Origin: a virus | Virus record (IMG/VR): IMGVR_UViG_3300002835_000436 | Span: 1-40,180 of that record | Reading direction: 5' to 3' (one strand) | Length of the DNA stretch: 40,180 bases | Shown: positions 1 to 23,634 of the stretch, piece after piece | Position numbering within the stretch: the stretch's first letter is position 1 | Layout of the letters: every line of letters begins with the position of its first letter | Translations under genes and position numbers: made by a program | The notes under the pieces: generated by a model | Database searches by the model: none | What the model was told of the DNA's origin: nothing | The model's input: the letters and a program-made list of their open reading frames with translations, nothing else

Positions 1-3000
1 GTTCATCAGGGTTTTTTCTAACGTCTTTACCACCCACACCCCAAAAATAACTAAATGCTCCAAATTTGTTTGCTAAACCAACATCCATTGGATTCAAATA
101 TTTACCAGACGGATCGTATTTACCCCCTGGAATTACGCCGGGTTTACCCCCTTTAGGGTCATCAAAATGTAGTTCTAACGCATAAGCATTTTTGCTTTTC
201 TCTAACTTAGCAAGTTCCGTTTGATAATCTTTTCTGGCTTGATCCCCTCTAGCTGACGGTAGTGGGGGTGGCTGAATGAGTTTAAACCCTTTTTGAGCAA
301 AGACTCGCTCGAATACCTTGACGGCTTGCTCAGTCCCAATAGATTCAATAGTTCTATTTTCGCCTTTGTAGTTTAAACTTCCTGTTTGATTTGTTCCGCC
401 TGTACCTGTTTTGATGTCTAGTCTGTGTCCAGGGGTTAGTATTATTGATTTTGTTGGCTGTTGTTGAGGCATCGGCCAATCTGCTACCCTGTTCAGCATC
501 TTGTTGTCTTGTGTGGTATCAACAACCTTTTTGGTTGTATCCAATTTAATCCCAGGTACTTTAAAAGTTTTACCTAACTGGGTAGTTGGGTTTATCCTTT
601 GACCGTTGATCGTTACCTCCCAATGTAAATGCGATCCTGTGCCACGCCCAGTGCTTCCAACTTTACCTATTACATCACCTTGCTGTACAACGTCCCCAAC
701 CTTTTTAAGTAATTCAGATAAGTGAAAAAAGCGGTTTACAACTTTTTTACCTTCTGCGGTGATGGTTTCAACTTCGACCATATTGCCCGCACCACCATTC
801 CAACCACCTTTAGATGTGATAACCGTGCCTGTCAGTGGTGCTTTAATTGGTGTTCCTGTAGCGTCTTCAAAATCAACACCGTTGTGCATTTTTCTAGTGC
901 CGTCCAATGGGTCTGTACGCATTCCGTACTTAGATGTTACGCGCCCCGGCGTAGGTCTAAGCAAAGTTTGATTAACAGTCTGTAAATTATCCAATCCGTA
1001 GAACTTTTTGACAGCCCCTAACGGATTACTAACGAACTCTTTAGCACCCTGCTCTAACTGTTGCCCAGCTTTTTCCCCAAACACCGTGCTAACCGCCGAT
1101 TGAACACCGCCCGCTAAATTTTGTAACAAGCCTTGTCCGGTAGCCAGGGAAGCTAACCAGTTGGAGGTTTTTATTCCCATATCAGCGATCGCAGTCCCCA
1201 CGCGATCAAAGCCGTTCTCAAAAGACTTAACTAAATCTGCAAACTTAGTACCAAGACCTTCTATCCATGAGTTGCTAGTTTTACTTAAGTCTTTAATACT
1301 ATCTTCAGCTTTTTTAGTTGCGTCTACAACACTGTTAGATAAGTTATTTATATTCTTATTAATTTCATCAACCGTCCTGTTTACGTTTTTAAGACTGAGA
1401 TTAAAGTTATCGGCAATACTAGAATCTATCGGGATAATTTTTCCTGGTAAACTCCGTTGTAGTTCTATAGCTTGTAGCTGAATATCTTGGACGTTATTCT
1501 GGTAGTCAATCCTCTGTTTTCTTGCTTCTAGTTGTTGTTTCTCTATTTCGGTTGTTTGGGAAATTACATTAATAATTCCCTCAATAAACTGAGTGTAGAT
1601 ATTGTCCCCAGCACCAATTAAAGCCTCTCTAAGTTTATTCTGTACTTTAGGGTTTTCAAGGGTCTTTTGCGCTTTCTCAAATTCAATACCCACAGCTTGA
1701 GATTCTCGAACGGCTGCGCGATAATAGTCGGTGACTTGCTTTGTTTGTTGGTAGAGGCTTTGGATTAAGTTATATTTCTGCTCTGCAATTTGTTGTTGCA
1801 TATCAACAGTTTGGATTTGCATTTCCTTAACTTTTATAAAGCCACTTAAAATCTCTTTTTCTTTACTTCCATCAATACTTCTTTCTTGTGCAGCCTTTAA
1901 GGTGTCTATACCGCTTCCTTTATTTAAATTAAGGGCGTTTAAGACTCCATCTAAATCATTAACTTCCAATTGAGCGGACATCTCTTGGATTTGTTTTAAA
2001 TTATCGGCAATTTTACCAGTCAGAGTGGCTTGAGTTTTTAAGTTGTTCGTATATTCCAGTTGCCCTGGTAAAACGTCCCCACTGCTGCCAAGGTTAAATA
2101 AATTAGTTTTCTCTAAACTTAATGCTGTATCTCTATATTGTCTTAGATCGTTAAACTTAGCTTCTAAGTTCCTTATTTCAATTGCAAATTTTTGCATTTC
2201 TGTTAAGGAATTTTTAATAGCCTTAGTCATCTTGTCTTGTTTTTGAATAACTGTGGCTAAATCTTGTTCAGTTACCTTAATTATTTTATTAATTTGTTCA
2301 ATTTCACTTTGATAAAGTTTGGGATTTTTCTTTAGTTCTTCCCAATACTCCAAATAAGTTTTTAAAGTTTCTACTTGTTTGTCTAAATTAGCTTTAGTTC
2401 CGCCAAACAATTCTAAGGGCTTTTCTCTTCTTTGACTTAATTCTTTTTCTTGTTCTTGCAGTTCTCTTAATTGTTGAATGTCGCCAGGATTGTTAGCAAT
2501 AACAGCCCGACGCTTCATTTTAATATCATCCAAAGATTTATCAATGGCTTGAATTTCTTGGATAGCATCTTGTATAGCAGGAGAGTTACTATCTTTCAAA
2601 ATATCGAAAGTGTTTTGTTGCCCAATAGTTGTTTGTTTGGCACTATCCTCCATTTGTTTTATTAGTTTTTTTGTATCGTTATCAAATGGGTTAAGCGTAA
2701 ATCTTTCTCTAAATGCTGAAAAGTCATCACGGCTAACTTTAGAGGATGGATTTAATAATTTTCTTTGTTCATTAATAGACTGAGTAACGTTTCTAGTCTG
2801 TTCGCCAATTGCGCCGCTGTTATCCTTGAAATTCATCATTATTTCATCAATAGCTTTCATCGCCATTGATAAAACAAACATCTGAGCGGCTAAAGTTGCA
2901 ATACTTTGACCCATCCCCAGCAATGCACCCTTAGCCCCTCCCGCAGAAGAGGAAATTCCTTTTAAATACGTCGCAAACATTAACCAAACAGGACTTCCTA

Positions 3001-6000
3001 ATTTAATTAAGGTAATCAGTAAGACACTTTTTAAGAGTTGGAAATTCTTAGTTACTAAATCTATACCAGACGCAAAAACACTTAAAGAAAAGTTTCTGAA
3101 AGGCAGTAAAGTTTTACCAATACTTTCCTGTAACTCAATTAAGGAATTATTGAATTTATTAGTTATCGCCACTGAAGAATTAACGGCATCTCCTACACCT
3201 GATGAAGTTTGCGCTTTTAATTGTTGAGCAAATTTTGGCAAAAAGTCCTCAGCTAAAACCCTGCCTGTACTTAATAATTGGTTCATGGACTGGGTGGTTG
3301 TTCCGTAAGCATTTGCGGCGATTTGCGAAGCGTTGGGGATTGCTTCAGCGAGTTGTTGTCTTAATTCCTCTTGAGATACAACCGTTTTTCCAGACATTTG
3401 CTCAAGCGCGGTAAAAGTCCTTTGCTGCTTGTCTAAATCTAAACCATAGACAGCCGAAGCTTGAGTGACTGCGCTAACGATCTGGCGAGATTGATAGCCT
3501 TCTATGGGAGTATCCTTAGTTGCCTGGAAGAATTTACTGCCACTTTCTAAAGTTTGGCTTAAGTCAACGTTGAGTCTTTTTGCTTCCGATCTTAAAAATG
3601 CAATATTTTTAGCACCCTCTGAAATGCTTCCAGAAGTGAACTTAATCCGTCTCTCTAAATTCTCAAAGTTAGCGGCGACTTCTATGCTTGCGGGAGCTAA
3701 ATCTAAGATAATTTTCCCTACGGCCAACAAAGCTAGGACTTTAACAACATTACCTATAGAAGATTTAACAAAGTCCATCATCTCGCCAAATTTCTGGACT
3801 TTACTCATTCCCTCTACAAAACTATCAAAAGCCACCTTAGCCTGGATGAACCCTTCCTTAATTTTTTCTGGCATCTTAAGGAAATCTACAAATAATTCCT
3901 TAGCTGCAACAATACCGTTAGCTAACCCCTCGCCTAATGCTGCCGATACGTTAGGATTGGCGATTTCCTTAAGGAAATCTAAATAACCCTTAAATCTTTC
4001 CTTAGCTTCCTTAAATCCTGGGATACTTCCTAATCCTTTACTAAAGCCTCGGCTTAATTTATTTTTAAAGTTTTCCGCAGTAGAAGTTATATCTCCATCT
4101 TCTACAGCAGATTTAATATCGTTCATTAGCTCTATAAATATGCCAATAATACTAGAATCTTCTAAAAACCCAAGTCCCTTAGTAAATCCTTCGCCTACGT
4201 ATTTACCAATTCTAATACCCCACCTTGAGGGAGATTTAATTTCTAATTTTTCCTCAACGGTATCTATTACTGTATTTGCTAATTTTTCAGAAGATGATTT
4301 AACATTTTTTAAAGAATTATTTATACCTTCACTTAAACCTCCTCCTACGTTTTTACCAGTTCCTTGAAGTGCTGCGAGTTGTTTATTAAACTCATCCACC
4401 ATTGCCTGTTGAGCTTCGGACAGTGGTGGTTTTTTGCCGACTTGTTGGATAGGTGCAGGATAACCCTCCGTTGCTTTAACAGTTTTATGAGCAACTTCGC
4501 CAATCGCCTCAACAGGTTTATTGGCTGACTTCCTGATACCCTCAGACAGTCCTTTGTTGATGTTGATGCCAGCCGACTCAGCAGCTTTTAAAAATTCAGG
4601 ATTAAAATCGCCAATAACTTTAATGTTTTTGCTTAACGCTGTGCGAATAAAGGCAAGTAAGCTATCGCCATACTTTTTGAATAGTTGATCGGAAGAAATT
4701 TGGCTACTACCAATACGAATAGCTGAAATGTCGCTAGGCAAAACTGGAACGTGAGTTTGAGCTTCGACGTAGCCAGAATTTTCCTCATAGTTTCTCATCA
4801 AGTTTGCTTTGGGTGAAACAGAGCTTAATTGCCTAAATTGCGAACCCCTCCCTTCATAATCTTCTTTTAATTCTTCTATTGACTGATGTCTGTCTAAGTT
4901 GCTGTCTCTTTGAAGCCATGTTGTTTTATTAGCAATCCTAGACGGATCGATTAAAAACTCAATAGCCCCATAAGCCTCGTTTTTGGTATGATCTGCGCCA
5001 TACTCTTTATGGCGCAAAGCACTATAAAGAGTCCCACTTCGTCCAAACAGTTCAAGCTCTCTGGCAGCGCGATTGCTTGACGGTCTTCCCATCAATCCAC
5101 TGCCAAGAATATTGTTTAGCTTGGATGGATCAAATGACGTTCTGTGGCTCAAATACCAGTCACGCAAGCTGTTTGTTAATTCCTCTCCGCCATTTAATTT
5201 TGGATCTTGATTAACGAAGTCAAAAGTTTTTGCAACATCGTCAATCCCAGACTTAGCTATTTCTTTAACCTTGTCTAAACTATTCTCTAACCCAATCCCG
5301 TAACCATCTCCAGTATTTTCGCCATACCCCTCCATTACTTTAGATGGAGATTGCATTTTTAATTTTTCTGTAACTACGTCAGGTACTATATCTGCTAATT
5401 TTTCAGCCGCAGTGCGTAAATCACCTATGCTATTTTCCAAACCTTCGGTCATGCCCTTGCCTACATTTTCCCCAACGCTAGGTAAGTTTAGTTTATTAAC
5501 GTTAACTATCCTATCTGTTTTATTTTGGACGCTAGATATTTGACTTAAAGTTTGTCCTAATTGACTGCCCAACCTTGTCGAGCCAACGTTATTATTCTCA
5601 CCTAAAGTTTTAGTGATTAATTTAATCTCTTCTCTTGCTTTAACTCCCATCTGCTTAATGGTCGCCGCCATATTTGCGGCTTCATCTAAATTACCAGACT
5701 TAGTTAAAGTTTGTAAAGTTGCAAAACTTTTGTTAAATTGCGCTGCAATATTTCTAGCTGATTCTAGTCCAACCCTTGCTTCAGGGCTTAAATCTGCATC
5801 TTTCTCCCTAGTCTTAAAATCTTTTAAATATTCTTGCCCTTGGGGAAACTGTGCATTTATTCTAGCAAGTCTTTGGTTGTCAGTGTATTTTTCTCTAGCG
5901 GTTCTAGTGTCTTTTTTGGGATTTTTATTTAAGTCAGTTAATCTAGCTTGTTCTTCTAAAGTTTCCAATACTCTAGTTTGTAAAGTTTTTAATTCGGGAT

Positions 6001-8017
6001 AAAACTTAACAGCTTTTTCTAATGTTTTAGCTAGAGATTGTTTAATCTTTGCTCCAGAATCTAAAAATTCAACAATACCTGCTCTCATTTCTTCTAAAAA
6101 AGCAGTATACTCATCAAACTCTGGTTTAATGTCTTTACCTATTTGTCTCGCGTTTGGTAAATTTCCCATCATGGAAGAAAAGTCATATTCTCCTCTTCTC
6201 CATTCTGGTTTTTGAGGAACTGCAAAAGTATAACCCTCCGCGCCGTTAAATCCTGCTTTTTCAATTTGCCTTAAGGTTGAGCCGTCACCCAATACAGCTT
6301 TAAGAGTTCTAACTAAACTGTCTTTCTCATCTAATTGAGATTTAAAAAAATGTAAATTAGGCTCACTCTTTATCCCTTTAGATAAAGACGGACTTACGGG
6401 ATCTATCGCGTCTCCCAAAAACGACTGTATTTGTTCATTTACCATAGGCTTGGTTAGGAAGGGAAGTAATGCGTGACCCTTCCCCGCTCCTGGTATAAGA
6501 GACATTAATGGGGACTCCTCCATAAGTCCCGGCATACCATAAGACATCACCTTGAGAGTTGCCTTATACACTGGATGTTCTTTGTCCGCTACATTTTTAC
6601 CGCCAAACATAACAACGTTTAAAGGATCGAACTCTCCAACTAAGGATTGGTAATTTTTCTGACTAGCCGTAGTCATTAAATTATTTACTGGTGCTGTCAA
6701 TCCCAATCCCTTTACGTTCGTTATTCCTGCCCTTTCTAGGATTGCGATCGCTTCCTCGACTATGTAAGACCCACCACTTGTCCCCGCTAACTGAATGGGT
6801 TTGTCTGGATATTTTTTTCGGTAAGCCATAGCTTCAGCGGCCATCTTTACCGAATCCGGGTTATATCCTTTCTCCAAGTTAGTATGTAAAAGCATATCAA
6901 ACGGCATAGGCTCAGATGCAGGTCTTTCAACTCCGTCCGCGCCAACCACCGTGCCACTACTTAGATCTGCCCTAAACTGATAAATCTGCCCTAAATTATT
7001 TTTATCATTTGAATAAGGGTTAGTAACGGGAACAGAATAAGACCCCGGCAAAATCCTTTTGACTAAGTTCTCTGCAAAAAAAGTATTTCGCCCACCCTTC
7101 TGGAAGTCAATACCTCCAGTAATTAAAGAAATTGATTTAGCTTTTTTTATATCTTCGTTGTCAGCGACATTTACATTTTCTGACATTTTTGCAGCATCTT
7201 GCGCGGATTGAGCGAGTAATACTCTTTTTCTAATTCTTAAGGGTTGTGCGCCAACTTTAAGAACTTGTCCTGCTGCGGTATATGCAATTTCTTGAATTTC
7301 GTCAACTATAGGCTGAAACGCTGCTTTAAATTTCTCTTGCGCCTGAGTTTGATTTTTAAATACGAACGCATCTTCCAGTGCACTAACAATATCGTCTTCA
7401 AATTTTTGAATACTTTCTGGCGTAACCTTAGATAAAGGTTTCGACACTGCGCGGGTAAAAGACTGAGTAGCTCCAGCGACATCTAATCCTAAGTTTTTCT
7501 TAAACCCAGACATTAAATTTTTACCAATCGTTCTACCAAACTCCTCAGTAAGTCCTGTTCCTAAAGACCGACCTAAACTTAATTTAGCCGAATCCATTAC
7601 GGCTTTTTCTACTGATTTTAATTGTCCGACTATTTCTCTAGAATTGTTATTATTATTAATTACTAAATTGGCTTTTTCTTTATTTACTTCTACATCTACT
7701 CTCACTCTAGCTCTGCCGTTACTACCTTTGGTTAGCGATGCTAATTCCTTATTTAAGTTAGTTAATTCCCCGTCATCAACAAAAACTTTTAAAGGATTGT
7801 TTTTAAAATAAGTTTGTGTTTGCTTAAAGTGAGTTACCTTTAAGTCAAAATGTTTATTAAGGTTTTTTAGCGAGTCATCATTAACGCCTATGGTTAAATT
7901 AAGATCTTTCTCTAGAAATTGAGCTTGTTTAATAGCCTCGACCCTAGCCTTTTTTATATCTTCCATTAGCTTGGAGTAATCACCAACTAACTCAACAACT
8001 AATTGTGGTAATTCCAT
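1..8017 (-). CDS. Tape-measure protein A with hydrolase, M23 peptidase and amidase-like domains (3' end outside window)
   Basis: An open frame starts at ATG 8017 and runs without a stop to the window edge, giving 2672 visible codons. It sets tail length and probably carries cell-wall enzymes. Seen, in order: charged helical N-terminus; residues about 290-535 with an alpha/beta-hydrolase pattern (GTSGGS nucleophile Ser414, GEFDPL Asp464, GHALLP His515); about 925-1150 resembling DUF3626 (YGAIEF, YVEAQTH); repeated GLSEGI/SPSK blocks at about 850-1280; a typical tape-measure region at about 1440-1610 (AANFENLE onward); hydrophobic helices near 1660 and 1700; long coiled coil to about 2330; M23 metallopeptidase at about 2355-2480 (His2378, Asp2382, His2463, His2465); and an Amidase_3-like domain from about 2525 (TPGH His2531, LHFD His2617). 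It starts 5 nt after the chaperone extension stops, the usual order in siphoviruses. Family assignments come from motifs. Confidence 0.9.
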   Translation of the reverse strand, partial: MELPQLVVELVGDYSKLMEDIKKARVEAIKQAQFLEKDLNLTIGVNDDSLKNLNKHFDLKVTHFKQTQTYFKNNPLKVFVDDGELTNLNKELASLTKGSNGRARVRVDVEVNKEKANLVINNNNNSREIVGQLKSVEKAVMDSAKLSLGRSLGTGLTEEFGRTIGKNLMSGFKKNLGLDVAGATQSFTRAVSKPLSKVTPESIQKFEDDIVSALEDAFVFKNQTQAQEKFKAAFQPIVDEIQEIAYTAAGQVLKVGAQPLRIRKRVLLAQSAQDAAKMSENVNVADNEDIKKAKSISLITGGIDFQKGGRNTFFAENLVKRILPGSYSVPVTNPYSNDKNNLGQIYQFRADLSSGTVVGADGVERPASEPMPFDMLLHTNLEKGYNPDSVKMAAEAMAYRKKYPDKPIQLAGTSGGSYIVEEAIAILERAGITNVKGLGLTAPVNNLMTTASQKNYQSLVGEFDPLNVVMFGGKNVADKEHPVYKATLKVMSYGMPGLMEESPLMSLIPGAGKGHALLPFLTKPMVNEQIQSFLGDAIDPVSPSLSKGIKSEPNLHFFKSQLDEKDSLVRTLKAVLGDGSTLRQIEKAGFNGAEGYTFAVPQKPEWRRGEYDFSSMMGNLPNARQIGKDIKPEFDEYTAFLEEMRAGIVEFLDSGAKIKQSLAKTLEKAVKFYPELKTLQTRVLETLEEQARLTDLNKNPKKDTRTAREKYTDNQRLARINAQFPQGQEYLKDFKTREKDADLSPEARVGLESARNIAAQFNKSFATLQTLTKSGNLDEAANMAATIKQMGVKAREEIKLITKTLGENNNVGSTRLGSQLGQTLSQISSVQNKTDRIVNVNKLNLPSVGENVGKGMTEGLENSIGDLRTAAEKLADIVPDVVTEKLKMQSPSKVMEGYGENTGDGYGIGLENSLDKVKEIAKSGIDDVAKTFDFVNQDPKLNGGEELTNSLRDWYLSHRTSFDPSKLNNILGSGLMGRPSSNRAARELELFGRSGTLYSALRHKEYGADHTKNEAYGAIEFLIDPSRIANKTTWLQRDSNLDRHQSIEELKEDYEGRGSQFRQLSSVSPKANLMRNYEENSGYVEAQTHVPVLPSDISAIRIGSSQISSDQLFKKYGDSLLAFIRTALSKNIKVIGDFNPEFLKAAESAGININKGLSEGIRKSANKPVEAIGEVAHKTVKATEGYPAPIQQVGKKPPLSEAQQAMVDEFNKQLAALQGTGKNVGGGLSEGINNSLKNVKSSSEKLANTVIDTVEEKLEIKSPSRWGIRIGKYVGEGFTKGLGFLEDSSIIGIFIELMNDIKSAVEDGDITSTAENFKNKLSRGFSKGLGSIPGFKEAKERFKGYLDFLKEIANPNVSAALGEGLANGIVAAKELFVDFLKMPEKIKEGFIQAKVAFDSFVEGMSKVQKFGEMMDFVKSSIGNVVKVLALLAVGKIILDLAPASIEVAANFENLERRIKFTSGSISEGAKNIAFLRSEAKRLNVDLSQTLESGSKFFQATKDTPIEGYQSRQIVSAVTQASAVYGLDLDKQQRTFTALEQMSGKTVVSQEELRQQLAEAIPNASQIAANAYGTTTQSMNQLLSTGRVLAEDFLPKFAQQLKAQTSSGVGDAVNSSVAITNKFNNSLIELQESIGKTLLPFRNFSLSVFASGIDLVTKNFQLLKSVLLITLIKLGSPVWLMFATYLKGISSSAGGAKGALLGMGQSIATLAAQMFVLSMAMKAIDEIMMNFKDNSGAIGEQTRNVTQSINEQRKLLNPSSKVSRDDFSAFRERFTLNPFDNDTKKLIKQMEDSAKQTTIGQQNTFDILKDSNSPAIQDAIQEIQAIDKSLDDIKMKRRAVIANNPGDIQQLRELQEQEKELSQRREKPLELFGGTKANLDKQVETLKTYLEYWEELKKNPKLYQSEIEQINKIIKVTEQDLATVIQKQDKMTKAIKNSLTEMQKFAIEIRNLEAKFNDLRQYRDTALSLEKTNLFNLGSSGDVLPGQLEYTNNLKTQATLTGKIADNLKQIQEMSAQLEVNDLDGVLNALNLNKGSGIDTLKAAQERSIDGSKEKEILSGFIKVKEMQIQTVDMQQQIAEQKYNLIQSLYQQTKQVTDYYRAAVRESQAVGIEFEKAQKTLENPKVQNKLREALIGAGDNIYTQFIEGIINVISQTTEIEKQQLEARKQRIDYQNNVQDIQLQAIELQRSLPGKIIPIDSSIADNFNLSLKNVNRTVDEINKNINNLSNSVVDATKKAEDSIKDLSKTSNSWIEGLGTKFADLVKSFENGFDRVGTAIADMGIKTSNWLASLATGQGLLQNLAGGVQSAVSTVFGEKAGQQLEQGAKEFVSNPLGAVKKFYGLDNLQTVNQTLLRPTPGRVTSKYGMRTDPLDGTRKMHNGVDFEDATGTPIKAPLTGTVITSKGGWNGGAGNMVEVETITAEGKKVVNRFFHLSELLKKVGDVVQQGDVIGKVGSTGRGTGSHLHWEVTINGQRINPTTQLGKTFKVPGIKLDTTKKVVDTTQDNKMLNRVADWPMPQQQPTKSIILTPGHRLDIKTGTGGTNQTGSLNYKGENRTIESIGTEQAVKVFERVFAQKGFKLIQPPPLPSARGDQARKDYQTELAKLEKSKNAYALELHFDDPKGGKPGVIPGGKYDPSGKYLNPMDVGLANKFGAFSYFWGVGGKDVRKNPDE

Positions 8018-8022
8018 ATAAT

Positions 8023-8451
8023 TTACTCTTCTAATAATAAACTGATTGAGGCTAGAACTTGAGGACTAACTAAACTATTCTCAAAGGCAAACTTAATACA
8101 AGATTTTGTTTCTTCACTAATGCCCGCCTTGTCGGTTTTAACTTCATTCTTGAACGGTAAAAAATCAGTCCACGAAATATTTTTACCGCCCAAGAACCCA
8201 TAAACCACTTCCGCCAACCTTGCTGTTGCAAAGCTTTTTTCGTTAGACTTGACCCTATCAATTTTTTCCAGTCTTGATAGGGTGTCTAAAATTACAAAAG
8301 GCGGAAGTTGGAGGAAATTTACCCAGCTACTAAATCTACTGTCTTGGATTCCGTGCTTTTGGATCTGGAGGTAGATGGTGTACCAGTCAATGTCTTGTCC
8401 GCTTCCACTTCCATATCCATCTTCTTCACTTCCTCCAGTGGAGTTAGTGCT
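8023..8451 (-). CDS. -1 frameshift extension of tail assembly chaperone A (gpT-like)
   Basis: A 142-codon open frame has no usable start near its beginning and is entered by slipping back one base on the A8 run at 8451-8458. Translation after the slip begins S-T-N-S-T-G-G-S-E-E-D, passes a Gly/Ser-rich linker, then a folded-looking part (DIDWYTIYLQIQKHG ... FSSWVNFLQLPPF ... ARLAEVVYGFLGG) and ends at TAA 8023-8025. The fusion would be 265 + 142 = 407 residues. In lambda, gpGT binds the tape measure through T and recruits tail tube protein; the same role is inferred here. The tape measure ATG lies 5 nt beyond the stop. A start at the internal ATG 8217 would give only a 64-residue fragment and would leave the well-formed upstream part untranslated. 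Confidence 0.85.
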   Translation of the reverse strand, partial: STNSTGGSEEDGYGSGSGQDIDWYTIYLQIQKHGIQDSRFSSWVNFLQLPPFVILDTLSRLEKIDRVKSNEKSFATARLAEVVYGFLGGKNISWTDFLPFKNEVKTDKAGISEETKSCIKFAFENSLVSPQVLASISLLLEE

Positions 8452-9245
8452 TTTTTTTCACCTTCAGGATCTTCTATAATGTTGAGGCTTTCGGATTGGT
8501 AAAACTCAAAGACGGCTTGGATTAATTCTTGGGGAAGTCCTGCAATGTCAGCAAAGCTTAAATTCTCGCAACCTAGGACATACTGGCGGTCAAAATTATC
8601 GTACAAGAATCCAAGTTCTCCGTCTTTAATTTTTCCGGGAGATTTCTCAATCACTACGTCCTGGACTTCAGAATCGTGATTTCCTTTAACTACCAGAATT
8701 ACATCACCGAATTTAATATTTGTCCCATCAGGAAGAGGGTATCCTAACTCTTCGATCTTAATTTTTTCACTATTTATTAAGACACTTTCTAGTAGTTCTA
8801 CATGATAAGCGAGTCGTCCCGGAACAAATACGGGTTCGGGATTACCTTCGACGTAAAAACCTCCCATGATGGTTTTGGCGACAAAATTCCAAATTTCTAA
8901 AGTTGGAACTTCATTCTTGTTTAATTCGCTTAATTCTTCTTCGTACTCACTTAATACTGTATCTTGATCACTGGGAAAAACTCTAGTCCCGTCAACTTCC
9001 TTACCAAAAATGTATTCCGAAGCTTCTTCCCTGCTTATATCTTTATCCTTAGCAATACCTTTAATTACGGCATTAATTACGCCAGTAACTTGTTTTTTAG
9101 TAGCCGAATATTTTTTAACTTGTAACGACTCACCGGCTTTTACATAGCCCAATCTTTGCAAATACAAATAGCCGTGATTTTCTGTACCGACAGCGACGAT
9201 TTCTGCCTTTTTTTTCTTGGAATTGGAAGGTTTTACTTTTAGCAC
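8319..9245 (-). CDS. Tail assembly chaperone A, short form (gpG-like)
   Basis: This 308-residue protein lies between the tail tube gene and the tape measure, the position of lambda G/T-type tail assembly chaperones, which coat the tape measure while the tube polymerises. It is acidic with a basic lysine-rich N-terminus (residues 1-20), and I recognise no domain by sequence. The assignment rests on position and on a canonical -1 slippery site at codons 263-265 that opens a 142-codon overlapping frame. After the slip site the zero frame continues 43 residues (LTPLEEVKKMD, then Ser/Thr-rich) to TAA at 8319. Its start overlaps the end of the preceding 76-residue gene by 7 nt, suggesting translational coupling. 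At 308 residues it is longer than lambda gpG, so it may carry an extra N-terminal domain. Confidence 0.75.
   Translation of the reverse strand: MLKVKPSNSKKKKAEIVAVGTENHGYLYLQRLGYVKAGESLQVKKYSATKKQVTGVINAVIKGIAKDKDISREEASEYIFGKEVDGTRVFPSDQDTVLSEYEEELSELNKNEVPTLEIWNFVAKTIMGGFYVEGNPEPVFVPGRLAYHVELLESVLINSEKIKIEELGYPLPDGTNIKFGDVILVVKGNHDSEVQDVVIEKSPGKIKDGELGFLYDNFDRQYVLGCENLSFADIAGLPQELIQAVFEFYQSESLNIIEDPEGEKKALTPLEEVKKMDMEVEADKTLTGTPSTSRSKSTESKTVDLVAG
8427..8459 (-). promoter_or_regulatory. Programmed -1 frameshift site A: slippery A8 plus hairpin
   Basis: In zero frame the codons are GAA AAA AAA GCA (8459-8448), giving the classical A AAA AAA heptamer. Immediately downstream CACT-AA-CTCC-ACT-GGAG-GA-AGTG (8449-8427) folds into a two-part hairpin that could stall the ribosome. 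The -1 frame is open for 142 codons. The motif and frames are read directly; slippage efficiency is unknown. Confidence 0.85.
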
Positions 9246-9469
9246 AATTCTATCTCCAGGTTTGTGTTAATTATGGTTGTGTTGTTGTCTTTAACTTCTG
9301 GGGGAATTTTTATCTTAAATTCTTCCCCCGTTTCTGAGAATAATGAAAGTTCTCCAGATAATCCGCCCCTAAAAAACGCCGCGCCACATAAAATTTTTGT
9401 CTCGCTAGAATTAAGTCGGCAGTTAAATAACGCAACAATGTTTTTAGATATATCTGCAAGGACTTTCAT
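9239..9469 (-). CDS. Small unknown tail-region protein (76 aa)
   Basis: It sits between the tail tube gene and the chaperone, with a 7-nt overlap with the chaperone start. The predicted product is mostly beta-strand-like with an acidic C-terminal half (FKIKIPPEVKDN ... INTNLEIELC), no membrane segment and no recognised motif. A weak Shine-Dalgarno-like GGATA lies upstream. It is probably translated as part of the minus-strand late operon, since the frame fills the gap exactly, but a small tail accessory role is only a guess from position. The plus-strand frame over the same bases lacks any operon context and is taken as a shadow. Confidence 0.6.
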   Translation of the reverse strand: MKVLADISKNIVALFNCRLNSSETKILCGAAFFRGGLSGELSLFSETGEEFKIKIPPEVKDNNTTIINTNLEIELC

Positions 9470-9487
9470 TTAAAATTAGTATCCTGA

Positions 9488-10201
9488 TTATGAGTAAGGG
9501 TCGACCCAAGTAAAGGAAGTCCCTTGCAAGTGAGCGGTAAAGGAATACTTTTTAACTTCGTTGTAACTACCGGGCTGGCTGTAGTCCGTAATTAAAATAG
9601 CCGCTTCAATAATTTCGCCGTCTGGATAGACAGCGTAGAAATACAATTCGCGTCCAAAATAGCCGCCATCTCTTTGGGTTTGCTTAATAAGCTGTAGCGC
9701 AGGATCTCCGCCAACTGGGGAATCGTAATGGTTTTCTACGCCAGAGAATTGGATGGTTCTATCGCTACGGATGGCCTTTTTCTCAGTTCCAGTGCCACTT
9801 AAAGTATTGGTTGTGTCCACTGTGGTTGTTTGAGCGGCCAAGGGGAACTCTTGAATCCCGTACATGGGGAGCAAATCATCAACAATCCTTGCTGTACTTC
9901 CGGTAGCGATCGCGTATTTTGAACTAAAGATGGGAATGTTAGTCGCTGTAGTCGCTACGGTCACATCTTCCGAAATGAGGACATAAGTTCGCGCTTTATC
10001 CCCATCCTTGAAGAAGGATAGTGCCATACCTGCTTTTAAGTCTGTCGCTACAGAAGCAGTACAAGTAATTACGGTCGCGCCAACAGCGACGGCTACTGTA
10101 GACGTAAGAGTTCTTGCGACTACAGTTCTTGTGCCTTTGGGCAATAGTAAGATTCCTGCACTAAAACCCTCTAAAGATGTAGTGTTGTAAGCTAAAGGCA
10201 T
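9488..10201 (-). CDS. Major tail tube protein A
   Basis: The 237-residue product has the composition and pattern of siphovirus tail tube proteins: Thr/Val/Ala-rich beta strands, a central loop region, and a C-terminal strand set with YSFTAHLQGTSFTW, typical of the end of a tube-protein beta sandwich. It would polymerise in hexameric rings around the tape measure. The start ATG at 10201 follows a clear AAAGGA ribosome binding site (TTTAAAGGAAAAAATAACT). It lies 23 nt downstream of the terminator gene and is followed by the 76-residue gene and the chaperone, the standard tail order. The N-terminal SLEGFSAGILLLPKG could be the part contacting the neighbouring ring. The family call comes from pattern and context. 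Confidence 0.75.
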   Translation of the reverse strand: MPLAYNTTSLEGFSAGILLLPKGTRTVVARTLTSTVAVAVGATVITCTASVATDLKAGMALSFFKDGDKARTYVLISEDVTVATTATNIPIFSSKYAIATGSTARIVDDLLPMYGIQEFPLAAQTTTVDTTNTLSGTGTEKKAIRSDRTIQFSGVENHYDSPVGGDPALQLIKQTQRDGGYFGRELYFYAVYPDGEIIEAAILITDYSQPGSYNEVKKYSFTAHLQGTSFTWVDPYS

Positions 10202-10224
10202 AGTTATTTTTTCCTTTAAAAAAA

Positions 10225-10599
10225 TTAAATCATCACCCTGTCGGCAATATAAATTCTTGCCTGTTCAATCACCTTTTCATCTGCCGGGGTATTCGTAAAT
10301 CTTGAAGTTACATAAGCCCTCCTAATCCTCTCTACCGCTAAACTTAAATTAGGCGTTGCTGCCCAATTTTTAAGGGTGATTTCCCAAAGTCTAGGGTGAT
10401 ATTTCATCCCAGCAGAAGATGAGCGAGGATCGCCAGATGGGATGTGGTTAATCAAAATCTCTAATCCGTTACTACTAGATGGCGGATTTACTCCGCTACC
10501 GGATACCCAAATACTAGGAATAGGAACTCCGCCTTTATATGTCCCCACAAGTCCTGTGAGCAAATTTAAAAGTTCCGTCCTTAGTTCTTTTGAGGTCAT
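10225..10599 (-). CDS. Tail terminator-like protein A
   Basis: A 124-residue protein directly upstream of the tail tube gene, the position of the tail terminator that caps the tube and joins it to the neck. The N-terminal helix (MTSKELRTELLNLLTGLVG), a strand-rich middle (LEILINHIPSG, RLWEITLKNW) and the ending ARIYIADRVMI fit the small alpha/beta fold of lambda gpU/HK97 gp10-neighbour proteins. It starts 2 nt after the stop of the preceding gene, so coupled translation is likely. Sequence similarity at this level is weak and the function rests mainly on gene order. Confidence 0.6.
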   Translation of the reverse strand: MTSKELRTELLNLLTGLVGTYKGGVPIPSIWVSGSGVNPPSSSNGLEILINHIPSGDPRSSSAGMKYHPRLWEITLKNWAATPNLSLAVERIRRAYVTSRFTNTPADEKVIEQARIYIADRVMI

Positions 10600-10601
10600 T
10601 T

Positions 10602-11018
10602 TTATCTAACGGTAAGGGAGTAAGAGTTAATTAAGCCGCCTAAATCTACGATATCTCGTGGACTTCCCACCAAGTCACCACTTTTACGAAGGGTGTATCG
10701 TGGCCAGTTCCAAATGGGACTTTTTATGGAATCTTGCATCTCGTTGCCGAAATTACTACTAAGTTCAAAAAAAGAGTTTTTAATCGCATCCCCTAATCTC
10801 TTACTTTTACTAGAGTTAAGAATTGTTCTTGAAAATTCTTCCTTAAAATTAAAGCTATCGGCAGTTACCCAAACCCAAGGCCTTGCTGGTGCGGATTCAC
10901 CACTCTTAAGAGTCCATCCCTCATGCAGTTTAGCTGCATAATCAACGTCCCACTTAAAAGTCGCTACCTGAGATTTGGGTAAATTTACAAGTTTTTCCCA
11001 ATCGTTTGTTTTTACCAT
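10602..11018 (-). CDS. HK97 gp10-like neck/tail-completion protein A
   Basis: The 138-residue product shows the layout of the HK97 gp10 family: an N-terminal YAAKLHEGW with a following PARPWVWV, a central helix (FGNEMQDSIKSP) and the ending WPRYTLRKSGDLVGSP..DLGGLINSYS, where WP.TLR.K/SG and D.G.L..S are family hallmarks. These proteins sit at the head-tail junction or complete the tail. It lies between the head-closure and tail-terminator genes with a 2-nt gap to the latter. ATG 11018 is preceded by TGATATA with no strong ribosome site. Confidence 0.7.
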   Translation of the reverse strand: MVKTNDWEKLVNLPKSQVATFKWDVDYAAKLHEGWTLKSGESAPARPWVWVTADSFNFKEEFSRTILNSSKSKRLGDAIKNSFFELSSNFGNEMQDSIKSPIWNWPRYTLRKSGDLVGSPRDIVDLGGLINSYSLTVR

Positions 11019-11045
11019 TATATCACAAGGTATAAAAAATTACAT

Positions 11046-11450
11046 TTAATTTCTCAGGGAAAGGTTTAAATATCCAAAAATAACCTCTCCAAACCTCATA
11101 GTTAAAGACGAAAAAATAGGCTGTACTATGGGTAAGAATTTAAACTTACCTACATATTCTCTATCGCCTAAATCCAAGACAGCGTTAGCCTCAATCTCTA
11201 AGTCAAAAACTAGAGGAAGAGTTGAAGGCATCCAAATATTATTATTGTTTAAAGTTAAAATATTACCCTTAAGAAAAATATCAGTAATTTGGATACCTGG
11301 CATTTGATAATGAATAGGGTTTTTGGATTGCGCCACCCTAGCAAAAACTTCTACATTAGTTTTCTCCTCAATGGGGTTGCCGTAATCATCTTCTGTAAAG
11401 CTCCCATTACCTGCGAGTAAGTTAATTTTTAAATTAGGGTTATTTAACAT
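11046..11450 (-). CDS. Head-closure-like protein A (134 aa)
   Basis: I chose the start MLNNPNLKI at 11450 because it follows the stop of the upstream gene by one base (TAAGATG); a longer frame from 11498 would overlap that gene by 47 nt. The product is beta-rich with short strands (VEVFARVAQ, IQITDIFLKG, LVFDLEIEAN, REYVGKFKFLPIV) and no membrane segment. Its place between the connector and the gp10-like gene fits a head-closure or stopper protein such as the SPP1 gp16 or HK97 gp7 group. No diagnostic motif is visible, so the role is inferred from order. Confidence 0.6.
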   Translation of the reverse strand: MLNNPNLKINLLAGNGSFTEDDYGNPIEEKTNVEVFARVAQSKNPIHYQMPGIQITDIFLKGNILTLNNNNIWMPSTLPLVFDLEIEANAVLDLGDREYVGKFKFLPIVQPIFSSLTMRFGEVIFGYLNLSLRN

Positions 11451-11451
11451 C

Positions 11452-12087
11452 TTAAGTCCGAGGTCTATATTTATAAAATAACGGCAAAAGATTAGCAAAT
11501 GGTTTTAAATCATTAAAATCTTGGTAGACTATTTTCGCTCCCTGCGAACTCTCTTCTTTAATTATCTTCTGCTCTCTATATAGAACTTCTGCGATAGCTG
11601 CAATTACAGATTTAATTTTTAATATCTCTTGGGATTGGGAAGTTGCGGAAAAATTTAAACCTGCGCTGTAAGTAATTCTTATTTCTTGAGTTACGTTATT
11701 GCTACGACTCCTTCGTATACCTCTAATAATATTGGCATTTATATAGTTAAAATTATTAAGTTCTAAACAATCTCCAATTAAAAAGTAATTTTCTGATGGT
11801 AAAACTTCCCAATTTTGGCTAACTGGGATATCACCAAAACTAACAAATAAATTATTATACCTAACTTCTACTAAATTAATTGCCGTTACGGGAGCATAAA
11901 CTAAGGCTATTTTATTTAAACCTAAAACCCTTTCTAATACATAATCCTTAATTACCAATTCCCGATTTGCGCCCAAGGATGATTCGCACAGAGATTGAGA
12001 TCGCAAAATAAGTCCTTCTAATTCTAGATTACCAAGGACGGACAGCGATGGCGAAAGATTTCTCAATTCCTGTACGGTTAAAATCAT
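11452..12087 (-). CDS. Head-tail connector/adaptor-like protein A (211 aa)
   Basis: I prefer the start MILTVQEL at 12087, because the longer frame from 12114 overlaps the preceding gene, and an AGGAAATT stretch lies upstream of 12087. The N-terminal helix TVQELRNLSPSLSVLGNLELEGLI resembles phage gp6-type connector proteins, followed by strands (REYV..-like VIKDYVLERVLGL, EIRITYSAG) and a long C-terminal helix with ILKIKSVIAAIAEVLYREQ. Such adaptors bind below the portal ring. The gene follows the capsid gene and precedes the closure gene as in HK97-like genomes. The assignment is moderate. Confidence 0.65.
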   Translation of the reverse strand: MILTVQELRNLSPSLSVLGNLELEGLILRSQSLCESSLGANRELVIKDYVLERVLGLNKIALVYAPVTAINLVEVRYNNLFVSFGDIPVSQNWEVLPSENYFLIGDCLELNNFNYINANIIRGIRRSRSNNVTQEIRITYSAGLNFSATSQSQEILKIKSVIAAIAEVLYREQKIIKEESSQGAKIVYQDFNDLKPFANLLPLFYKYRPRT

Positions 12088-12092
12088 CTTAA

Positions 12093-12338
12093 TTAATTTC
12101 CTAGCCTTGGGCAATTATCTTTGGAAAAATTTTCTGCACAAACAGGTTCGTCTGTCTGGTTAGTTTGGTATTGCGCCCCACAATTTTGGCAGTAGGGAAT
12201 ATTGTTTCTTTTGAAGTATTCTGTAGAATAAACGCCCATTGCTTTTTTTATTACTTTTGCTTCTACCGCTGGCGTTTTAGTTTTGGTTGGAGGTTTTTTA
12301 GTTTCTTCAACCGGAATATTTTCGTTTTCTTCTGGCAC
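12093..12338 (-). CDS. Small Cys-rich, zinc-ribbon-like protein (81 aa)
   Basis: Residues 1-30 are Pro/Lys/Glu-rich and probably disordered (VEETKKPPTKTKTP). The C-terminal half has CQNCG near residue 50 followed by two more cysteines (PVCAENFSKDNC), so a four-cysteine metal site is possible. It lies between the capsid and connector genes and ends 5 nt before the connector start. A tail-fold or DNA-contact role cannot be told apart from sequence. It may be a small head protein; cysteine content and position are observed, the function is not known. Confidence 0.6.
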   Translation of the reverse strand: MPEENENIPVEETKKPPTKTKTPAVEAKVIKKAMGVYSTEYFKRNNIPYCQNCGAQYQTNQTDEPVCAENFSKDNCPRLGN

Positions 12339-12367
12339 TTTCTTATCCTTAAATTTAATCTTAAAAG

Positions 12368-12393
12368 TTACCCTTAACTTAAGTTAAGGGTAA
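12368..12393 (-). terminator. Perfect 26-nt palindrome after the capsid gene; candidate attenuator
   Basis: TTACCCTTAACTT followed by its exact inverted copy forms a perfect palindrome just 3' of the capsid stop codon on the minus strand. In minus-strand RNA it would be a strong hairpin followed by CUUUUAAG, only a partial U tract, so partial termination or mRNA end protection is more likely than full termination. That would raise capsid output over downstream genes. Confidence 0.6.
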
Positions 12394-12398
12394 AAAAC

Positions 12399-14810
12399 TT
12401 AAACAGCCCTACGCGCAACTCTTAATTTAGCGCAACGGGTTTGTTGTCCTGCTGGGGAAGCTAAAGCTGCATCCAAGTCAATAACGCCAGTTTGTTCACG
12501 GCTAATCCAGATAAAAGATTCTCCCATGTTAAATGGAGTTGTACCAGAAGCGCGAACTTCCATTGGTAATGCAATACCGCGACCGACCGCACCGTAGCTA
12601 AATACGAAACAGTCTTCAGTAACGGTTGCGCCCGCGCCAAAAGTAGTTGTGTTTACGGTTGGATCAGATCCACCTGGCGCACCAACACCCCATGTATTGC
12701 CTGAGAAAATTTCAAAGCCGCAATATTGACCGACGTAACCTGAGCTTTGTCCGATTTCAATTCCAGAAGCCGCACGGAGAACGTTAGAAATATTCTGGCG
12801 TTGTTCTTCAGTTACAGGAGAGTAAAGCTTGCCTAAAGATTTCTTTAGATTGTCTAAGGATTTAGGGGGAACTGTCAAAATGTAACTGTTATTAGGCAAA
12901 GTTGGCCATTGGTCGGCGTAAAGCTGGGAATAAACAGAAGACAGGAAGTCTTCAGTTAAAGTACCGTCATCTGTTGCGGCAACGTTAGCCGGAACGGACG
13001 TTACTTCACCCTTATCGTTGTAATAAACTTTAGTTGTCTTAAAGTATTCCTTACGCACCATCAAATCTTCAAATTTGAAGTAGTGCTGCATTAATACTTT
13101 ATCCAACACTGCCATTAAGTCAATTAATGACGTAGCTTCAGTAAATTCTGGAATAAATACAGGGCGGTTGCCTACTCCTGTGCTCAAACCTAGACCCCAT
13201 TGAGCAATAGTTAATGGGACTGTGGTAATTTCCAAGCCTTGAGAATCCGTAGAAGTACCACGAGAATAATTAATGCTGGTATAGGTGTCGGTTGTGCTGA
13301 TCAGGAAGTCGTTAACATCTGTAGGATCGGCTAAATTATTAGCGCGAGGAATCAGGATGGATTTATTGGGCGCAGATGTTGAGTCATATATAGTGGAAGC
13401 AAACTGCCACCAAATATTATTGGAGTTGTGAGTTTCTCTCATTAAAGCTGAGAGAACATCCAAGAAAATTGCGCCAATGCTGCCGCTCGATCCAATAGTT
13501 GGCCCGGCCGCACGACCAGAAAGAAATCCGCCACCCTCAGAAGATTTAAAGTGATTTTCTAATTCTTTAACCAAAGGAGTGTGTTTCCAATTACGCAAAC
13601 CCTTAGTGGCTTGCTCTTCACGGAAGTGATCGTGCATGAATCTAGCTAAAACATTATGATTCCGTTGGACTGCAACCATTCCATCGTGGCGAACTTCTGT
13701 AGGTTCGGCTTTGGAACTGTTAAATAAGTCAATAAATTCTTTAGCTAAACCTTGCATGGCAAACTTTGGGGTATTTTTAACGGCGGGGACGACTTCAGAT
13801 CCGGGGCGGCCAATTAACTGCGAAATATCTTTAAGGGTATCAGCTAATTGCTGGGCTTTTAATCTCTCGGCGCGTTCTTGGTCTAATTCTTGTTTTAAGC
13901 TTGAATTTTCTGCTAAGGCTTGAGATTTTTCTTGTTCTAGAACTAAATTCATTTCCCGAACTGGAGTTACTGTTTCAAGAATTAATTTTCTAACGGCTTC
14001 TAAATCTAAGCCTTGAGGCTTCAACTCTGCTACGGCTACAATCTCCCTTTCCTCTAGCGCAGGAACGGGGTCGGGAGTTGAAGATTTAACTTCTTCTAAA
14101 GGTGTTAGTGGAGGCATATTTTTACCTTTAATTTGAATAATTTTAGGCTCATCTTTTCCATTGCGCTGTAGGCTTTTACCTACTCCTACCGTCGGGTCGG
14201 CGGGTACGCTTGCATGGGATATCTCAAATATTTCCCAATTTTTACTTATCCTGACTGGGTAATAACCCCTGTCTGCGAGTCCGTATTTTTCAATAAGAGC
14301 GGCGGCTTCTTTCTTGGGAAGTTCGGTGTATTCATCCTGTACTTGGTACATGAACGAAACACCTTTACGAGTACCCTTTTGGACTAAGTTATATAAGTCT
14401 CTACCCTCTGCGTTGTCGTCGTACTGGACATCGCAAATAGCCTTACCTTGGGAGAAATTTACCCCCATTACTAGGCCGCGTTGCAAATCCCAATTATGAT
14501 TCCAAAGAATTGGGCAGACACCTTCTGTAACCCTTTGAGTATTGCAACAGCCTGGCTCATGGGAAAGAACTTCGTAATATCTCTCATCTTCCCAGTAATC
14601 GTATCTAAGGATTGGATATTCGGAAGAAAAAACAAAACTTGCGGTTAAGTTTCCTACTACTTCTTCCCCACTCTCCTCTTCCTCCATATCCTTATTTAAA
14701 TTTAAAGATTTTGAGAAGTTGGGAAGAATTTCCAAATTAAAATATCGCGTAGCTTGACCTACGGCAATTTCACCATCCTTAAGTTCTAACCTTGCATTTT
14801 TCTCTGACAC
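12399..14810 (-). CDS. Fused prohead protease and HK97-type major capsid protein
   Basis: An 803-residue frame starts at GTG 14810. Residues about 15-215 match HK97 prohead protease (S78): ILWNHNW with His105, KGVSFMY with Ser152, and the family ending EISHASVPADP (198-206). Residues about 270-335 form a coiled coil like the HK97 delta (scaffold) domain. From about 345 to the end is the major capsid protein: an N-arm, then GGGFLSGRAAG, and a long shell domain ending CAKLRVARRAV. In most relatives protease and capsid are separate genes, so this is a fusion. A SD-like AAAGG sits 7 nt before an in-frame ATG (14117, residue 232), which could yield free capsid precursor of 572 residues. A neighbouring palindrome follows the stop. 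Confidence 0.88.
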   Translation of the reverse strand: MSEKNARLELKDGEIAVGQATRYFNLEILPNFSKSLNLNKDMEEEESGEEVVGNLTASFVFSSEYPILRYDYWEDERYYEVLSHEPGCCNTQRVTEGVCPILWNHNWDLQRGLVMGVNFSQGKAICDVQYDDNAEGRDLYNLVQKGTRKGVSFMYQVQDEYTELPKKEAAALIEKYGLADRGYYPVRISKNWEIFEISHASVPADPTVGVGKSLQRNGKDEPKIIQIKGKNMPPLTPLEEVKSSTPDPVPALEEREIVAVAELKPQGLDLEAVRKLILETVTPVREMNLVLEQEKSQALAENSSLKQELDQERAERLKAQQLADTLKDISQLIGRPGSEVVPAVKNTPKFAMQGLAKEFIDLFNSSKAEPTEVRHDGMVAVQRNHNVLARFMHDHFREEQATKGLRNWKHTPLVKELENHFKSSEGGGFLSGRAAGPTIGSSGSIGAIFLDVLSALMRETHNSNNIWWQFASTIYDSTSAPNKSILIPRANNLADPTDVNDFLISTTDTYTSINYSRGTSTDSQGLEITTVPLTIAQWGLGLSTGVGNRPVFIPEFTEATSLIDLMAVLDKVLMQHYFKFEDLMVRKEYFKTTKVYYNDKGEVTSVPANVAATDDGTLTEDFLSSVYSQLYADQWPTLPNNSYILTVPPKSLDNLKKSLGKLYSPVTEEQRQNISNVLRAASGIEIGQSSGYVGQYCGFEIFSGNTWGVGAPGGSDPTVNTTTFGAGATVTEDCFVFSYGAVGRGIALPMEVRASGTTPFNMGESFIWISREQTGVIDLDAALASPAGQQTRCAKLRVARRAV
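14115..14130 (-). promoter_or_regulatory. Possible internal ribosome site and start in the protease-capsid gene
   Basis: On the minus strand TAAAGGTAAAAATATG places AAAGG 7 nt before an in-frame ATG (Met232), between the protease and delta domains. A product from here would be 572 residues and lack the protease, the form most needed in bulk. The sequence is observed; use as a start is inferred. Confidence 0.5.
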
Positions 14811-20971: not shown

Positions 20972-21062
20972 AATTTTTATTTTTTTACTTTTGGGACTTG
21001 ACGACGGTATATAAACCATGTATTATATAATTATACTTTTAAATGTATAAAGAGAGGTAACT
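20972..21062. promoter_or_regulatory. Divergent promoter region, portal / plus-strand accessory operon
   Basis: On the plus strand TTGACG (20998-21003), 17 nt and TATTAT (21021-21026) form a good promoter for the gene at 21063, which has an AGAGAGGTAACT ribosome site. The block TTGACGACGGTATATAAA recurs almost exactly at 23582. On the minus strand two TATAAT-like boxes near 21022-21036 could serve the portal. Confidence 0.7.
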
Positions 21063-21446
21063 ATGGAAGGATTAAAAAAAATAAACATTGGCGACATTTA
21101 CTGGATGCCTTCAAATAAACCTATTGATAAAAAATCAATAGATATTAAATTAATAGTTACTAAAGTAGGCACTAAGTTTATCTATGCTAATAATGAAGAT
21201 ACAAATTGGGAGTATAAGTTTACTTTTAAATCTGATGGTGTACTGGATTTAGTAAATAATATGTGTTCCGGTAAAGCTTATTCTGAGGAGCAATGGGAGA
21301 AGCAAAAGCTAATTATCAAGTTGGATAAATTAACTCAAAAATTCAAACAAGAGTTTTCGCAAATTAATAATTCTACAGACTTTAAAAAATATCAAGAGTT
21401 GGTTAGCGAAATGAATGAATTGTCTCAAAAGATTTTAAATCTATGA
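21063..21446 (+). CDS. Unknown accessory protein, beta-barrel-like N-terminus (127 aa)
   Basis: Residues 1-60 read like a small beta domain (INIGDIYWMPS ... IKLIVTKVGTKFIYANN ... WEYKFTFKSDG). After YSEEQWEKQKLI the rest is coiled-coil helix (about 75-127). This layout, with a short strand region, an EEQWE motif and then a helix, recurs in small phage accessory proteins of unknown function. It is the first gene of the plus-strand operon, behind the promoter at 20998 and a good ribosome site, and overlaps the methyltransferase start by 4 nt (ATGA), so the two are coupled. No enzymatic residues are evident. Confidence 0.7.
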   Translation: MEGLKKINIGDIYWMPSNKPIDKKSIDIKLIVTKVGTKFIYANNEDTNWEYKFTFKSDGVLDLVNNMCSGKAYSEEQWEKQKLIIKLDKLTQKFKQEFSQINNSTDFKKYQELVSEMNELSQKILNL

Positions 21447-23585: not shown

Positions 23586-23610
23586 CGGCGGTATATAAAA
23601 AGTATATAGT
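23582..23610 (+). promoter_or_regulatory. Extended promoter overlapping the cytosine methyltransferase stop
   Basis: TTGACG (23582-23587), a 17-nt spacer and TATAGT (23605-23610). The spacer begins GCGGTATATAAA, so TTGACG(A/G)CGGTATATAAA is shared with the promoter at 20998. Conservation between -35 and -10 suggests a regulator site. It would drive genes 23635-25285. Confidence 0.7.
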
Positions 23611-23634
23611 AGGATTAAGTTAAAGTTAAAAAAA

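Follow-up and report, generated by a model that had tools for sequence, protein, structure and literature searches.

The tape measure protein encoded in a 40,180-nt stretch of viral DNA (IMG/VR record IMGVR_UViG_3300002835_000436, positions 1 to 40,180; hereafter the window) carries a predicted alpha/beta-hydrolase domain near its N-terminus. According to the sequence comparisons and the structural model described below, residues ~294-552 form this domain, with Ser414, Asp464 and His515 as its putative catalytic triad. We consider it fairly likely that this cutinase- or lipase-like serine hydrolase is a swappable cargo of the N-terminal part of cyanophage tape measures, used for membrane channel formation or for an effect on the host. 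The computed part of this explanation comprises the fold, the conserved Ser-Asp-His set, the N-terminal position and a divergent member of the family in sister phages. The original prediction had placed the triad in a tape measure, and this setting was borne out: the TMP_3 domain (PF20155) scored 71.1 bits against a Pfam cut-off of 41, and the top PHROG of the protein is a tape measure (E-value 2.2e-29). In two related loci, L003 and L005 (loci and sister records are designated by L numbers), the tape-measure frame stays open past ~3200 aa, up to the end of the locus. The window phage looks like a cyanophage, judged from its ribonucleotide reductase, the closest matches of which are from a Cylindrospermopsis phage (53% identity) and a Synechococcus phage (50%).

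Structure prediction followed by fold search recovered the alpha/beta-hydrolase fold that had been claimed for this segment. We modelled residues 251-560 with AlphaFold2 from an alignment of 17 rows. The model has a mean predicted local distance difference test (pLDDT) score of 69.2 and a predicted template modelling (pTM) score of 0.73, and pLDDT rises to 85-97 in ten-residue blocks at model residues 11-50, 71-80 and 131-190. Its first strand corresponds to residues 295-300, and Ser414 (model residue 164) lies between a strand (158-163) and a helix (165-179), as expected of a nucleophile elbow. Gly301-Gly302, which follow the first strand, are a candidate oxyanion loop. A Foldseek search against the PDB gave cutinases on top (best E-value 4.8e-3, probability 0.98). 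VIA-align superposed 172 residues on the cutinase 7cy9_B at 3.5 Å (Z 13.3), and, judging by their titles, the best 50 rows listed (Z 12.2-13.3) consist of cutinases and other alpha/beta hydrolases. When a sequence profile was compared with PDB chains, a Trichoderma cutinase came first (E-value 0.0016). Five entries of BFVD reached an E-value of 0.001, among them one named "Tape measure domain protein" (E-value 7.8e-11) and three with lengths (330, 905 and 906) that fit the proteins gp047 and gp048 of Aphanizomenon phage CL131; lysin B gave a weak match in the same database.

The AlphaFold2 model, the VIA-align superposition and the Foldseek search assign the domain to the alpha/beta-hydrolase superfamily by fold, and the elbow and the ordered Ser-Asp-His set are conserved in the 35-copy alignment of relatives described below. 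The domain does not qualify as a member of the Pfam family Cutinase (PF01083), for which it scored 12.7 bits against a cut-off of 25.9. Cutinases have conserved disulfides, and residues 294-552 contain no cysteine. Neither Tle3 nor the MuF domain was listed by Pfam for the window protein, and a relative of the domain in L016 remained below the Tle3 cut-off (17.3 vs 27).

The triad residues were found where they had been claimed: GTSGGS starts at residue 412, GEFDPL at residue 461 and GHALLP at residue 514. The bare Ser-Asp-His pattern occurs as one set in the real protein, compared with a mean of 0.85 over 500 shuffles, 55.8% of which held at least one set. As shuffled sequences yield such a set equally often, we dropped the bare triad as evidence. 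It becomes meaningful because it is kept in relatives, because relatives match Pfam families and because of the predicted fold. The same three lines of evidence contradict the view that a coiled-coil tape measure contains these three residues by coincidence; that view has the chance expectation of the bare pattern in its favor, and we find it hardly credible. His481 was considered as the catalytic histidine since it was aligned as such in a 5-row alignment. In the 35-row alignment this histidine is found only in the window and His515 is the conserved one, and His481 was rejected. A selection comparison over codons 294-552 had too few changes to work with: L003 and L004 each showed 0 synonymous changes and 1 nonsynonymous change (S354G), and L002 and L005 showed 0 of either kind. 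The codon comparison of L003 and L004 ignores gaps and is out of register from about codon 608, and only the preceding part was used.

A domain search over 50,697 phage records gave five matches, of which one was credible, that to phage CL131 (E-value 8e-10). Four copies of the domain are distributed over two "hypothetical" proteins of this phage, gp047 and gp048, ahead of the annotated tape measure gp049. The other four matches (H2-H5; Vibrio and Burkholderia phages) had E-values of ~1 to 9 and were taken as chance; every annotated gene around the H2 and H3 matches is a "hypothetical protein." Genome contigs scanned with the window domain alone yielded no relative, and the 5-row alignment yielded three loci. 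The 5-row profile led to the viral contigs L013, L014/L015 and L016 and to three Nostoc genomes, and it matched 11 of 388 genomes of the Nostoc order. With the 17-row profile, 8 of 386 genomes of the phylum were matched, a set that overlaps with the order-level one. Five of these matches are strong (E-value 5.5e-13 or better) and lie in frames of 1647-3854 aa. The matches in G516 (E-value 2e-4), G535 (3e-6) and G598 (7e-4) lie in frames of 319-590 aa, are possibly cellular hydrolases and were excluded from the counts.

From the copies collected with the profile iterated once, we built an alignment of 35 copies, from which repeat loci (L001, L009-L012, L020-L027, L002-L005, L015, L038, L040) were excluded, as were L007, L008 and matches weaker than 1e-10. 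The Ser414 column contains 30 Ser, 3 Cys and 2 Gly, the Asp464 column 31 Asp and 4 Glu, and the His515 column 27 His, 3 Gly, 3 Tyr and 2 gaps. The triad is mostly retained rather than lost among relatives, all three residues being present in 25 of the 35 copies. The copies are partly non-independent, given the closeness of CL131 to L016 and of the three Nostoc loci to each other. Clustering at 60% identity gives 24 groups, and an intact triad occurs in one or more members of 19 of them. Of the ten copies with an incomplete triad, five stand last in the multi-copy upstream proteins (AHGYGG, AHCNGG) and resemble dead paralogues, and two have a histidine near the aligned tyrosine, which may point to an alignment error. 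Several relatives also exceed Pfam cut-offs. L016 is above those of Cutinase (32 vs 25.9) and of Thioesterase (28.3 vs 26.4), in both cases with one stretch that is sufficient by itself, and CL131 gp048 matched DUF676 (34 vs 20.3) and Lipase_3 (24.8 vs 22) and L044 matched Lipase_3 (23.9 vs 22), all three as whole-protein sums only. L017 exceeds the DUF676 cut-off as well.

Sister phages were collected with residues 1-111 of the window tape measure as query, which gave 18 viral records, one of which (L093) stops after 21 residues. The remaining 17 (L076-L092) are of three kinds: four have the window hydrolase, eight a divergent hydrolase along with a kinase-like segment, and five have none. 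The set represents three cassette types and not 17 independent events. The phages are closely related, since the ribonucleotide reductase is present at 99-100% identity in 13 of 17 records searched (L082 left out, L093 included) and positions 21000-26500 of the window are 96-99% identical in seven of eight sister records searched. Counted over L076-L092, the reductase is found in 12 of the 16 records searched, including the hydrolase-free L088-L090. L076-L079 are 96-100% identical to the window across residues 1-910; their match to the profile is by construction, as the window domain is part of it. L080-L087 share one different block, in which the hydrolase is identical over the 291-residue query and the kinase-like segment is 98-100% alike. 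Read in L066 (the record of L084), this block takes the place of residues 111-736. In the hydrolase-free L088-L092 the cores are also more distant from the window (24-74% in aligned pieces). Given this distribution of four, eight and five records, the hydrolase appears to act as swappable cargo. As five of the 17 sister tape measures do without it, its role would not be essential, and DNA entry does not generally depend on it.

The hydrolase-like segment of L066 matched the family with a probability of 95.5% and a score of 59.7, compared with maxima of 2.2% and 21.4 over 60 shuffled sequences. In Pfam it gave a sub-threshold match to Abhydrolase_6 (13.2 vs 26.3). L099, an independent tape measure of a cyanobacterial genome (TMP_3 80.9 bits), has a hydrolase that is 56% identical to the L066 replacement and conserves its catalytic residues (Ser in FSLGG, Asp in EKDP, His in the HH motif). 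Another match (27%) lies at a site that is also hit by the window-type profile (G022:C124). An enzymatic role is favored because the replacement alters most residues yet keeps the family and the catalytic set. It is this retention, together with the intact triad in 25 of 35 divergent copies, that makes it improbable that the module is catalytically dead or a purely structural filler lengthening the tape measure, a reading in line with the loss of Ser in 5 of 35 copies, the lack of an aligned His in 8 of 35 and the presence of other sequence at the hydrolase site in sister tape measures. The module could also act in assembly or maturation, for example in the processing or chaperoning of tail proteins, and not on the host. 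CL131 gp047 and gp048 are located among structural genes, and some tape measures undergo processing. The family resembles lipases and esterases rather than proteases, however, and the domain is missing in 5 of 17 sisters; we regard an assembly function as quite unlikely.

Some of our results weigh against a hydrolase cargo. The mean pLDDT of the model is just 69.2, and model residues 221-262, directly before His515, are below 50. The E-values of the Foldseek matches in the PDB are modest, none being at 0.001 or below, and the second PDB match of the sequence profile is an adenylate kinase (E-value 0.023). The window domain alone is below all Pfam cut-offs, including those of Abhydrolase_3 (13.4 vs 25) and Cutinase. 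Among the relatives, the DUF676 match of L017 (21 vs 20.3) falls on a copy without the Ser, and another L017 copy is overlapped by a sub-threshold nitrogenase-family match (21.9 vs 28.6). The replacement hydrolase of L066 matched at just 31% and 7.5% with smaller alignments. Finally, L088-L092 have no hydrolase along the full length covered, the best match there having a probability of 3.2% and a score of 22.7.

We then compared the placement of the domain between proteins. The domain occurs together with TMP_3 above its cut-off in the window, L014, L043, L044, L045, L047, L049, L050, L051, L052, L053 and L100. TMP_3 stays below the cut-off in L046 (30.2 vs 41) and is missing from L048, whose frame matches a PHROG tape measure (E-value 2e-42). 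Two further tape measures, L066 and L099, carry the divergent hydrolase. In all 16 tape-measure frames examined the hydrolase is N-terminal of the tape-measure core. M23 or SLT domains, found above cut-off in four of the 16 (window, L014, L044, L066), are always C-terminal of it. In CL131 and the Nostoc loci the domain lies in proteins upstream of the tape measure. The tape measure that follows is annotated in CL131; among the Nostoc loci the next frame was scanned in L017, where it gave a weak tape-measure PHROG match (E-value 2.5e-6). L016 has the CL131 layout, and its next frame (683 aa covered) is without a Pfam match. L042 has the domain behind a MuF domain (30.7 vs 29.6 bits; minor-head PHROGs), and in L013 it lies in one frame with TMP_3 (81.3 bits) in the next, overlapping frame. 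Going by these assignments, the family is found in virion proteins of several kinds, which are known or presumed to be ejected. A cysteine motif noticed by eye, CKxGKxCGDxCIPKxxxC, recurs between the hydrolase copies of the upstream proteins and in smaller neighboring proteins (L006, L016-L019), and is perhaps a virion-loading tag.

Other enzyme domains were found in the same proteins. L013:8789-14707 (+) has an ADP-ribosyltransferase, ART-PolyVal, at frame residues 311-446 (50.6 vs 31.2 bits), ahead of TMP_3. An APH-type kinase is just above the cut-off in L099 (24 vs 23.2; residues 958-1086 of frame 1256-11479, +), and an ABC1 kinase match was seen in L049 (23.1 vs 22.9; residues 1108-1155 of frame 3-11135, -). 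The kinase-like segment L066:4285-5127 (+) is sub-threshold (Kdo 16.2 vs 21.3, APH 15.7 vs 23.2); the domain order, hydrolase and then kinase, is identical in L066 and L099. A HipA/PI4-kinase-like segment, also sub-threshold (HipA_2, 26.1 vs 27), is located beside three hydrolase copies in a Nostoc upstream protein (L017:11439-12341, +), and L016 has a DnaJ domain between hydrolase copies (43.4 vs 27.8 bits; residues 854-909 of frame 8520-13151, +). These matches support the idea that the cargo comprises several kinds of enzyme, the kinase scores being for the most part marginal. An ADP-ribosyltransferase in L014 (residues ~1370-1580), for which there was no Pfam match, and a zincin in L013, for which there were only sub-threshold ones, were rejected.

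These neighboring enzymes point toward a host-directed role. The hydrolase could be an injected effector against the host or a competitor, acting in the cytoplasm or periplasm like type VI secretion system (T6SS) lipase effectors or MuF toxins, with no part in DNA entry. The hydrolase is exchanged between close sister phages along with the kinase-like segment, the tape measure of L099 has an APH-type kinase next to it and that of L013 has ART-PolyVal, the domain also occurs in upstream and MuF proteins, and several divergent copies can reside within one protein. The Tle3 similarity of one relative is, on the other hand, below the cut-off, and we rate this effector role as possible though short of probable. 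In a broader generalization, by analogy with MuF and injection-system effectors, cyanophage tape measures and adjacent proteins may be polymorphic effector carriers, in which close sister phages swap serine hydrolases, kinases, ADP-ribosyltransferases and other enzymes at a cassette site ahead of the core, and these enzymes would be delivered into the host with the genome. We see the balance on this generalization as even.

Several known systems resemble the cargo domain in part. The best matches by fold and profile in the PDB are to cutinases (carbohydrate esterase family 5, PF01083), which have a GxSxG elbow, Asp and His in the same order, and one relative, L016, is above the cutinase cut-off. 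The window copy differs in being sub-threshold, in its lack of cysteine and in its location inside a tail protein of >2672 aa. Peptidoglycan-cutting domains occur in other known tape measures, e.g., that of mycobacteriophage TM4. Such tape measures share with the window protein an enzyme domain on a tape measure, and the latter also has an M23 domain on its C-terminal side; unlike them, the module described here has a serine esterase/lipase-type fold and is on the N-terminal side. MuF polymorphic toxins of temperate phages are head proteins with exchangeable C-terminal toxin modules, and thus likewise virion proteins with exchangeable enzyme modules. L042 combines MuF with this hydrolase, whereas the window module is N-terminal in a tape measure. 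The lipase effectors of T6SS (Tle) and lysin B of mycobacteriophages are alpha/beta hydrolases of tail-like machines or phages that act against bacterial envelopes and are not known as tape-measure domains; Tle3 (in L016, below the family cut-off) and lysin B (in BFVD) gave weak matches.

Tme and Sle1 are reported to be tape-measure-related effectors of Streptomyces contractile injection systems, Tme being an endonuclease (PMC11126660, PMC13277306). As described there, a tape-measure-like protein doubles as a delivered enzyme or effector, as may be the case here, but the carrier in the window is a phage tape measure. The CL131 paper, in its main text, lists the tape measure as a structural protein, gives a number of 23 virion proteins and makes no mention of "lipase," "hydrolase," gp048, ORF047 or ORF048 (PMC6293099). 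In a published phage lipase case, the lipase is a GDSL domain in a tail-fibre open reading frame. Among the open-licence papers searched, with subscription papers and preprints outside the scope, we found none describing a tape measure with an alpha/beta hydrolase.

The features of the tape measure gene are collected in Table 1. Residues 920-1185 are a second swappable segment, missing in L003/L004 and 98% identical in L066, near repeated EKLxIxSPS motifs seen by eye. Relatives of it were confined to the same phage group, with none among the phage records, and its single-sequence AlphaFold2 model (pLDDT 41.1) was uninformative. By eye it resembled an ADP-ribosyltransferase, which we do not claim, as Pfam gave just a sub-threshold unrelated match. 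The C-terminal stretch of the tape measure at window positions 2-520 (-) matched a baseplate PHROG only (E-value 8.7e-8); it has a look that we take to be amidase-like, and no Pfam match was found for it.

Table 1. Features of the tape measure gene, in window coordinates
Feature	Position	Strand	Residues and basis
Tape measure protein	2..8017	-	2672 aa inside the window, 3' end beyond the window edge; open reading frame list, TMP_3 PF20155, PHROG
Peptidase_M23 domain	587..892	-	Residues 2376-2477, C-terminal side; PF01551, 90 bits
TMP_3 tape-measure core	3119..3685	-	Residues 1445-1633; PF20155, 71.1 bits
Second swappable segment	4463..5260	-	Residues 920-1185
N-terminal cassette	5810..7687	-	Residues ~111-736, exchanged en bloc in sister phages
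Predicted alpha/beta-hydrolase domain	6362..7138	-	Residues ~294-552; profile boundaries, AlphaFold2 model, cutinase matches
His515, putative triad histidine	6473..6475	-	His in 27/35 copies; weakly modelled (model residue 265, block mean pLDDT 62)
Asp464, putative triad acid	6626..6628	-	Asp 31 / Glu 4 of 35 copies
Ser414, putative nucleophile in G-T-S-G-G elbow	6776..6778	-	Ser in 30/35 copies; model residue 164
Gly301-Gly302, candidate oxyanion loop after first strand	7112..7117	-	Gly at 301 in 26/35 and at 302 in 29/35 copies

Elsewhere in the window, the matches of the ribonucleotide reductase (14906-18289, +) to several cyanophages are split into two pieces with ~71% covered, which suggests an intein of ~300 residues. 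The window also encodes, at 31191-36941 on the + strand, a second tape measure that is unrelated to the first and belongs to another family (PhageMin_Tail); it was found in none of the 17 records searched, many of which are fragments. The window is similar to sister records up to ~26.5 kb and again in a patch of 83-92% at ~26.9-27.45 kb; beyond ~27.45 kb there was no match in eight sister records searched, though several reach further. From these comparisons, the window may have arisen by chimeric assembly or by recombination. The tape measure under study falls within the part common to the sister records.

Tape measures fill the tail tube with their C-termini toward the tail tip and leave the tail during infection. 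On exit from the tail, the M23 domain on the C-terminal side would open the peptidoglycan first, and the N-terminal hydrolase would emerge last and reach the inner membrane or the cytoplasm. There it would cut esters or thioesters; its resemblance to cutinases and lipases makes membrane (glyco)lipids the most likely substrates. The outcome would be an aid to channel formation or an effector action on the host. The lipase or esterase action on host lipids during DNA entry proposed in the original prediction would be one form of this scheme, which we infer from sequence and model.

The usual view of tape measures is that of rulers, some of them equipped with a domain that cuts peptidoglycan but with no other enzyme. 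Lipase-like domains, as a family found in the tape measures of cyanobacterial phages, would add an enzyme class to virion entry, and it would tie tape measures to the polymorphic-effector logic of MuF toxins and contractile injection systems. The differing cassettes of close sister phages make the role of the domain testable by comparison of host range and entry kinetics, and the finding offers a direct route to ask what the ejected tape measure does inside the cyanobacterium.

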